A stretch of 36,858 bases of DNA from an uncultured Granulosicoccus sp. (GTDB lineage: Bacteria; Pseudomonadota; Gammaproteobacteria; Granulosicoccales; Granulosicoccaceae): contig CALKXZ010000264.1 of assembly GCA_938003775.1 (NCBI GenBank), forward strand, positions 1 to 36,858, read 5' to 3'. Made by a program: the position numbers and the translations under genes. The notes under the pieces were generated by a model, which searched no databases, was not told the DNA's origin, and worked only from the letters and a program-made list of their open reading frames with translations. This document shows, piece after piece, positions 24,218-25,312 of this stretch; positions within the stretch are counted from its first letter, which is position 1; each line of letters opens with the position of its first letter.

Positions 24218-24437
24218 ATTGTTGTGTTCGGATACTTGAATACACTGTATACGAAGCTGAAAATAAATCAGGCACGACACGTGCGATACATTGGATTGTT
24301 CGATTTGCGTACAAAATGCACAGCTTTAGCTATAGTTTTGCAAGAGTTTTTTTCAATTGATTTGTAAGTTGCAGTTGAAATAGTTATGCACTATGTGGAC
24401 AATGCGCGCATCGACAGAGAAATCGATCAGTAAAACG

Positions 24438-24462
24438 GTTGGAAGTTGTACTAACTTTCAAC
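24438..24462 (+). other. 10-bp hairpin in the RDD / H1-like intergenic region (candidate RNA element)
   Basis: GTTGGAAGTT(GTACT)AACTTTCAAC, one G.U. Confidence 0.55.
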
Positions 24463-24603
24463 ACATGATTTGTCTGGCTTTGATTGTTTATGAAGTCAGT
24501 TGTTGGGTCCGACAGCCATGATGCAGAGTTTCAGTAGCGGTAACCAGATCAATGATCAGAGTCACTGCGAAAGAATGATGCGGAAAGTTGTCGATTACGC
24601 AAT

Positions 24604-24654
24604 AACAGTCATTTCGACTGTTTGGGAGTCCGGTGTCATGACTCCTGTTTTTTT
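24604..24654 (+). terminator. Tandem hairpins followed by T7: attenuator or sRNA terminator upstream of the H1-like gene
   Basis: AACAGTC(ATTTC)GACTGTT (24604-24622), then GGGAGTC(CGGTGTCAT)GACTCCT (24624-24646), then G and TTTTTTT (24648-24654). Confidence 0.6.
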
Positions 24655-24678
24655 GAATGTCAGATCATAATCAGGAGT
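24641..24678 (+). promoter_or_regulatory. Alternative pairing that sequesters the SD of the H1-like gene
   Basis: ACTCCTG (24641-24647) is perfectly complementary to CAGGAGT (24672-24678), which contains the AGGAG SD 7 nt before ATG 24685. It uses the same strand as the terminator-like hairpin. Confidence 0.5.
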
Positions 24679-24684
24679 TCAATA

Positions 24685-25155
24685 ATGGCTCGAATGAGTA
24701 AACCGGCGGCAGCTAAACCTGCGAAGGCCGGAAAAAAGAAGGCTCGCGGTAAGAAACGTTCAACGAAAAAGAAGGCGGCTGGAAAGAAGAAGGCCGCAGC
24801 CAAGAAAAAGCGCAGTACCAAGAAAAAAGCCAGTGGCAAGAAAAAGTCGGCTAGCAAGAAAAAACGCAGTACCAAGAAAAAGGCCGCAGGTAAGAAAAAG
24901 GCTCGTGGCAAGAAAAAGGCCGCAGGTAAGAAGAAGGCCCGTGGCAAGAAAAAGGCCTCTGGCAAGAAAAAGGCCCGTGGCAAGAAGAAGGCGCGTGGCA
25001 AGAAGAAGGCTGCTGGCAAGAAAAAGGCCCGTGGCAAGAAAAAGTCAGCAGGCAAGAAAAAAGCTCGCGGCAAGAAGAAATCAGCCGGCAAGAAAAAGGC
25101 TCGCGGTAAGAAAAAGGCCCGTGGTAAGAAAAAGTCACGCGGTAAAAAGAGCTGA
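24685..25155 (+). CDS. Histone H1-like / AlgP-like Lys-Ala-Gly-rich repeat protein (156 aa)
   Basis: MARMSKPAAAKPAKAGKKKARGKKRSTKKKAAGKKK..., 6-aa period GKKKAR/GKKKAA/GKKKSA; AGGAG SD. Confidence 0.88.
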   Translation: MARMSKPAAAKPAKAGKKKARGKKRSTKKKAAGKKKAAAKKKRSTKKKASGKKKSASKKKRSTKKKAAGKKKARGKKKAAGKKKARGKKKASGKKKARGKKKARGKKKAAGKKKARGKKKSAGKKKARGKKKSAGKKKARGKKKARGKKKSRGKKS

Positions 25156-25178: not shown

Positions 25179-25208
25179 AACGCTCTGGGCATGTGTTGCC
25201 AGAGCGTT
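25179..25208 (+). terminator. Terminator-like hairpin after the H1-like gene
   Basis: AACGCTCTGG(GCATGTGTTG)CCAGAGCGTT, perfect 10-bp stem followed by TGTTTAAG. Confidence 0.7.
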
Positions 25209-25227
25209 TGTTTAAGACGTCCGACCA

Positions 25228-25256
25228 AAAAAGGGGTGGCATTGCTACCCCTTTTT
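25228..25256. terminator. Bidirectional intrinsic terminator between the H1-like gene and moeA
   Basis: AAAAAGGGGTGGC(ATT)GCTACCCCTTTTT, 13-bp stem (one G.U) with A/T tracts on both sides. Confidence 0.88.
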
Positions 25257-25260
25257 AGCT

Positions 25261-25312
25261 GTAGCGCTAATGAGTGGTGCTAATCAGTGGTGCTAATCAG
25301 TGGTGCTAAATA
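25261..25312. repeat. 13-bp tandem repeat, 4 units, spanning the moeA stop codon
   Basis: GTAGCGCTAATGA GTGGTGCTAATCA GTGGTGCTAATCA GTGGTGCTAAATA. Confidence 0.9.

Follow-up and report, generated by a model that had tools for sequence, protein, structure and literature searches.

How might the RNA upstream of an H1-like gene set the amount of a DNA-packing protein that is made? This question is raised by a 36,858-nucleotide stretch of DNA, here called the window, from an uncultured member of Granulosicoccus (Gammaproteobacteria). To our knowledge, little has been learned outside Chlamydia about how bacteria control the levels of very basic histone-like DNA-packing proteins, and a literature search on the marine genus Granulosicoccus found no work on such control. 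An initial annotation of the window described two tandem hairpins ahead of the gene, a T7 tract after the second hairpin, and a strand of that hairpin able to pair instead with the Shine–Dalgarno (SD) region, and proposed a switchable leader acting either on transcription or on translation. Reading the window directly, we found the coordinates given for hairpin 1, hairpin 2, T7, and the SD-complementary strand to be right to the base (table 1). We tentatively put forward, as our leading candidate, a genus-specific cis-acting leader RNA that would control, by limiting it, translation of the H1-like protein.

Table 1. Features of the leader and of the H1-like gene (positions in the window)
Feature	Position	Strand	Basis
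Promoter-like element TTGAAA-17-GACAAT-GCGC, with GC-rich discriminator	24375..24407	+	Consensus scan; near-invariance
Predicted 5' leader, ~275 nt; 3' end conserved, middle variable	24410..24684	+	Two conserved blocks in relatives
Hairpin 1, AACAGTC (24604-24610) / GACTGTT (24616-24622)	24604..24622	+	Sequence; covarying pairs
Hairpin 2, GGGAGTC (24624-24630) / GACTCCT (24640-24646); state A, SD free	24624..24646	+	24/24 leaders; covariation
Anti-SD strand common to hairpin 2 and closed fold	24640..24647	+	8 contiguous pairs with 24672-24679
T7 / U-rich linker, hairpin 2 to SD	24648..24654	+	Sequence; U-rich in most relatives
CAGGAGTT, SD region, target of the anti-SD strand	24672..24679	+	Sequence; GGAG invariant in relatives
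ATGGCTC at the start codon; paired in closed fold too	24685..24691	+	Predicted folds
H1-like Lys/Ala/Arg-rich protein, 156 aa (MARMSKPAAAKPAKAGKKK...)	24685..25155	+	ORF and homologues with same N-terminus

The H1-like Gene and Its Predicted Promoter

The H1-like gene is solitary, with a divergent gene for an RDD-domain protein on one side and a convergent moeA on the other. The RDD neighbor is kept at all 28 loci taken into the tree of RDD proteins. The H1-like protein of the window consists throughout of KKKA/KKKARG-type repeats, and nearly all of its relatives begin with MARxSKP; no Pfam or NCBIfam model matched it, as is expected of a protein of such low complexity. Just 3' of the gene (25267–25309), a GCTAATCAGTGGT-like unit recurs in short tandem repeats, preceded by two terminator-like hairpins (25181–25213 and 25233–25256).

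Comparison with relatives reveals two conserved blocks, 24281–24407 and 24589–24720, separated by a variable stretch. The first contains a promoter-like element whose family-wide form, TTGYRGTTGAA-N10-ACTATGTGGACAATGCG, is near-invariant upstream of the H1-like gene, is found at most once per congeneric genome (with up to one mismatch), and is separated from the H1-like start codon by 199–277 nt in most species. Given this single-copy, near-invariant element, we infer that the hairpins are transcribed inside a leader of ~275 nt, with transcription predicted from the sequence to begin near 24410. The initial annotation had named a promoter downstream of 24647 among the findings that would speak against its proposal; the predicted promoter lies upstream instead, at 24375–24407.

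In most genomes of the genus, the -10 box is followed by a GC-rich GCGC discriminator (24404–24409), and a discriminator of this kind is a trait of promoters under stringent control. A palindrome, TTTCAACT-TGY-AGTTGAAA, overlaps the -35 box (24359–24380); it is perfect in L016 and L027, its left half is degenerate in the window, and it is a possible operator. In the sister genera represented by L027 and L030, the promoter element is retained at a distance of 639 nt (L027) and 387 nt (L030) from the start of the H1-like gene, and hairpin 1-like stems are present without hairpin 2. A second leader motif, TTGGCCTRTNNNNTGGATRT, is conserved in L015–L020, L022, L023, L025–L027, L029, L030, and L072, where it precedes the start codon by ~110–280 nt and usually stands directly before hairpin 1; the window's own clade lacks it, and it does not clearly resemble a promoter of either the sigma-70 or the sigma-54 type.

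Conservation of the Hairpins

The fold of the window sequence alone is of modest significance (z = -2.0 for 24590–24700 and z = -1.95 for 24281–24700), and a hairpin with a 3' arm matching the SD over at least eight bases precedes 3 of 95 other genes with a GGAG SD, a background set taken from 20 stretches (20-kb samples) of a complete congeneric genome and from the window. What places hairpin 2 above chance is that 24 congeneric genomes keep it at nearly the same distance from the start codon, together with pair changes on both sides of the stem. Each of the 24 congeneric leaders recovered, which cover all main clades of the RDD tree, has the hairpin ahead of the H1-like gene (the genus members G003, G004, and G010 yielded no leader and stand outside this count). 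It precedes the AUG by ~60 nt, L019 with its insertion being the exception; in nearly all species, ~37–40 nt separate its 3' end from the AUG; and the linker between hairpin and SD is 25–28 nt long, mostly U-rich, and little structured, with a sequence that differs among species.

A covariance model of the hairpins and SD region matched once in each of 22 genomes out of the 27 congeneric ones, with no second copy in any. L024 and L028 were missed by the model yet carry hairpin 2 with the altered pairs GGGAGA/TCTCCC. Across 369 genomes of the class, the model recovered only two of the sampled congeners and two marginal hits. One of the marginal hits, L105, precedes an unrelated gene, and spread beyond the genus was rejected on these results.

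Compensatory changes occur in both stems. In an alignment made by hand from the stems only, with loops replaced by N, and which therefore leans towards the structure, 97.4% of the cells are paired, four pairs are changed on both sides, and 0–1 of 500 shuffles were as good. Hairpin 1 has covarying pairs (A-U to G-C; U-A to C-G) and drifts freely with compensation; other clades have a hairpin of unrelated sequence at the same place. In hairpin 2, covariation is seen at the outer pair and pair 6, and the GGAG/CUCC core is nearly unchanged in the 24 species; the exceptions are a C to T change in L016 and an A to G change in L021, both of which keep a wobble pair.

The tract after hairpin 2 bears on the first of the two proposed modes of action, in which the hairpin is an intrinsic terminator or transcription attenuator that yields a short leader RNA ending near 24654. 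T7 follows the hairpin in the window, the same place is T-rich in most relatives, and L007 and L008 score as terminators; however, by the d'Aubenton Carafa formula the score is negative in 22 of the 24 leaders, including that of the window, and the T-run is broken in L009–L012 and absent from L024 and L028. A plus-strand terminator scan lists none here, with a loop limit of 8 in the scan and a loop of 9 in hairpin 2. The SD partner (24672–24678) is made downstream of, and later than, the T-run, so the SD could not act as an antiterminator, and the folds showed no other strong competitor of hairpin 2 that might do so from upstream. We consider attenuation very unlikely: the T-run, the scores, and the order of synthesis all argue against this part of the proposed switchable leader, and it is the translational part that is favored.

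Predicted Alternative Pairing of the Shine–Dalgarno Region

The sequence ACTCCTG (24641–24647) is the exact complement of CAGGAGT (24672–24678), and the helix reaches eight pairs when a flanking G-U is counted. Hairpin 2 and the SD helix share this strand and are mutually exclusive. In the closed fold, hairpin 2 gives up its 3' arm to the SD, and its loop or 5' arm is paired around the AUG. The two folds are within a few kcal/mol of each other in most relatives, and the closed fold has the lower predicted energy in 20 of 24 leaders (folded from approximately -80 to +16). Predicted pairing of the SD is at least 0.9 in most leaders, compared with a median of 0.68 in the 95 other genes, and the anti-SD run extends to 10–11 pairs in the L019–L026 clade. 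When whole leaders are folded the two states are closer, and their balance varies with the fragment folded; in the window, hairpin 2 and the anti-SD:SD helix have values of 0.23/0.76, 0.50/0.49, and 0.03/0.97 for three different 3' ends. Folding of the growing transcript predicts that hairpin 2 forms first and that the closed fold appears once the SD emerges. The mutually exclusive pairing in a structured leader that the annotation described is backed by both conservation and energetics.

Among 64 cores of equal composition, including the native GGAG/CUCC, the 63 others abolish the predicted strong SD closure with rare exceptions (13 leaders, L024 and L028 excepted). In L013/L014/L021, L015, and L019, the hairpin loop is specifically complementary to the spacer between SD and start codon, a match that beats nearly all swaps with other clades; in L013/L014/L021 the SD is without one pairing base. 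Such loop–spacer complementarity is absent in most clades. The use of GCT as codon 2 in 27 of 28 genes was dropped as a sign of pairing in the start region because sister genera without hairpin 2 also use GCT.

The annotation had looked to conservation of both alternative helices. Hairpin 2 covaries, as described above, whereas the anti-SD:SD helix has no compensatory change among the congeneric leaders, and the anti-SD strand is unaltered in L008, L013, L014, and L021, in which the SD is altered. In L024 and L028, hairpin 2 is kept and the closed fold is absent (+9 to +10 kcal/mol). Furthermore, any hairpin with GGAG in its 5' arm is automatically complementary to the SD through its 3' arm, and for this reason the main rival is a constitutive translation-initiation leader, in which hairpins 1 and 2, lying immediately 5' of the 30S footprint, are fixed structures that insulate or stabilize the mRNA, the U-rich linker serves as an enhancer of the ribosomal-protein-S1 or standby kind, and the anti-SD pairing is incidental to an SD-like 5' arm. 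The near-constant distance of the hairpin from the AUG, the mostly U-rich and little-structured linker, and the compensated hairpin 2 of L024 and L028 are all consistent with a constitutive leader, as is the existence of A/U-rich translation enhancers, which are established (PMC2176067). However, the predicted equilibrium structure shuts the SD in most species, the core is nearly constant while the flanking pairs vary, and the linkers of L024 and L028 are not U-rich. We regard a constitutive leader as possible but, on balance, doubtful.

Another candidate way of blocking translation is bridging by CsrA/RsmA, whose sites would be the GGA of hairpin 2, that of the SD, and a GGATGT motif present in some clades. 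In keeping with this, csrA genes are present in 27 of 27 congeneric genomes (1–6 copies), hairpin 2 and the SD each keep their GGA, with a nearly fixed ~47 nt between the two, and GGATG is more frequent than in shuffles (15 vs. 7.6). Against it, neither GGA nor ANGGA is enriched overall (87 vs. 86.8 and 20 vs. 21.1, respectively), the GGA of hairpin 2 is in a stem rather than a loop, and the window's clade lacks GGATGT; binding by CsrA is quite unlikely to be the explanation. Most of the Granulosicoccus genomes searched carry csrA in two to six copies.

A short upstream ORF coupled to the H1-like gene would begin at the ATG in the hairpin 2 loop (24638–24670, MTPVFLNVRS) and use the GGGAG of hairpin 2 as its SD. 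An ATG is found there in L004–L013 and a TTG in L014, L021, and L023, and stops frequently fall just ahead of the H1 start; however, all three frames are found, close relatives included, and most other clades are without a usual start codon, which makes such an ORF extremely improbable. An RNA thermometer was rejected, as predicted pairing of the SD is flat from 4 to 55 °C. In an Rfam search with the leader, the best hits were far below gathering scores and no riboswitch or leader class was matched.

A Proposed Mechanism for the Leader

Based on conservation, hairpin covariation, and predicted energies, we posit that the leader works as follows. Transcription would begin near 24410, and hairpins 1 and 2 would form first on the emerging RNA, leaving the SD free on its appearance (state A, on). 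After the SD and start codon have emerged in turn, the SD could capture the hairpin 2 3' arm, with the hairpin's loop or 5' arm able to pair around the AUG (state B, closed). Given that state B is predicted to be the lower-energy form in most species, we infer, as effects of refolding in the cell, that translation would take place mainly on freshly made mRNA and be off on idle mRNA; alternatively, a ribosome, protein, or small RNA could hold state A and so permit translation. The leader may also represent a new, ligand-free class of RNA switch found only in Granulosicoccus, a timer or self-limiting gate in which fresh mRNA is translatable, refolding buries the SD and AUG, and the H1-like protein or another factor perhaps chooses the state, although we consider this class assignment unlikely.

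Conserved, present in single copy, and able to take up either of two exclusive folds, the leader of such a gene offers a compact and directly testable case of translational control. The leader probably tunes the amount of DNA-packing protein made, an idea that is plausible and testable rather than proven.

Comparison with Known Systems

Control of an H1-like protein through its translation start has a precedent in Chlamydia, where translation of HctA is repressed by the small RNA IhtA, which covers the AUG (PMC4355289, PMC3469542). In both cases an H1-like nucleoid protein is, or would be, held down by occlusion of the start; the likeness is one of outline; IhtA is a separate RNA that acts in trans on the AUG, whereas the occluding strand in Granulosicoccus is in cis. 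The protein of the window resembles AlgP of Pseudomonas aeruginosa (PMC9239181) in its repetitive, Lys/Ala-rich, H1-like composition, but AlgP differs in its N-terminal domain and its repeats, which are of KPAA, in contrast to the KKKA/KKKARG-type repeats of the window protein.

In its architecture the leader is similar to translational riboswitches and the SD-sequestering leaders of Rfam, in which an anti-SD and an anti-anti-SD helix ahead of the SD likewise exclude each other. It differs from them in having neither a recognized ligand-binding domain nor an Rfam match. The mRNA of the Helicobacter pylori type I toxin aapA3 (PMC6733600) likewise combines metastable, transient cotranscriptional hairpins, a different final fold, and ligand-free control of the SD. 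The order is reversed, however: the transient hairpin of aapA3 hides the SD, whereas that of the Granulosicoccus leader would free it and the later fold would hide it, and an antisense RNA and a toxin are known only on the aapA3 side. The element is best filed as a new, genus-restricted candidate among cis-acting translational leaders.
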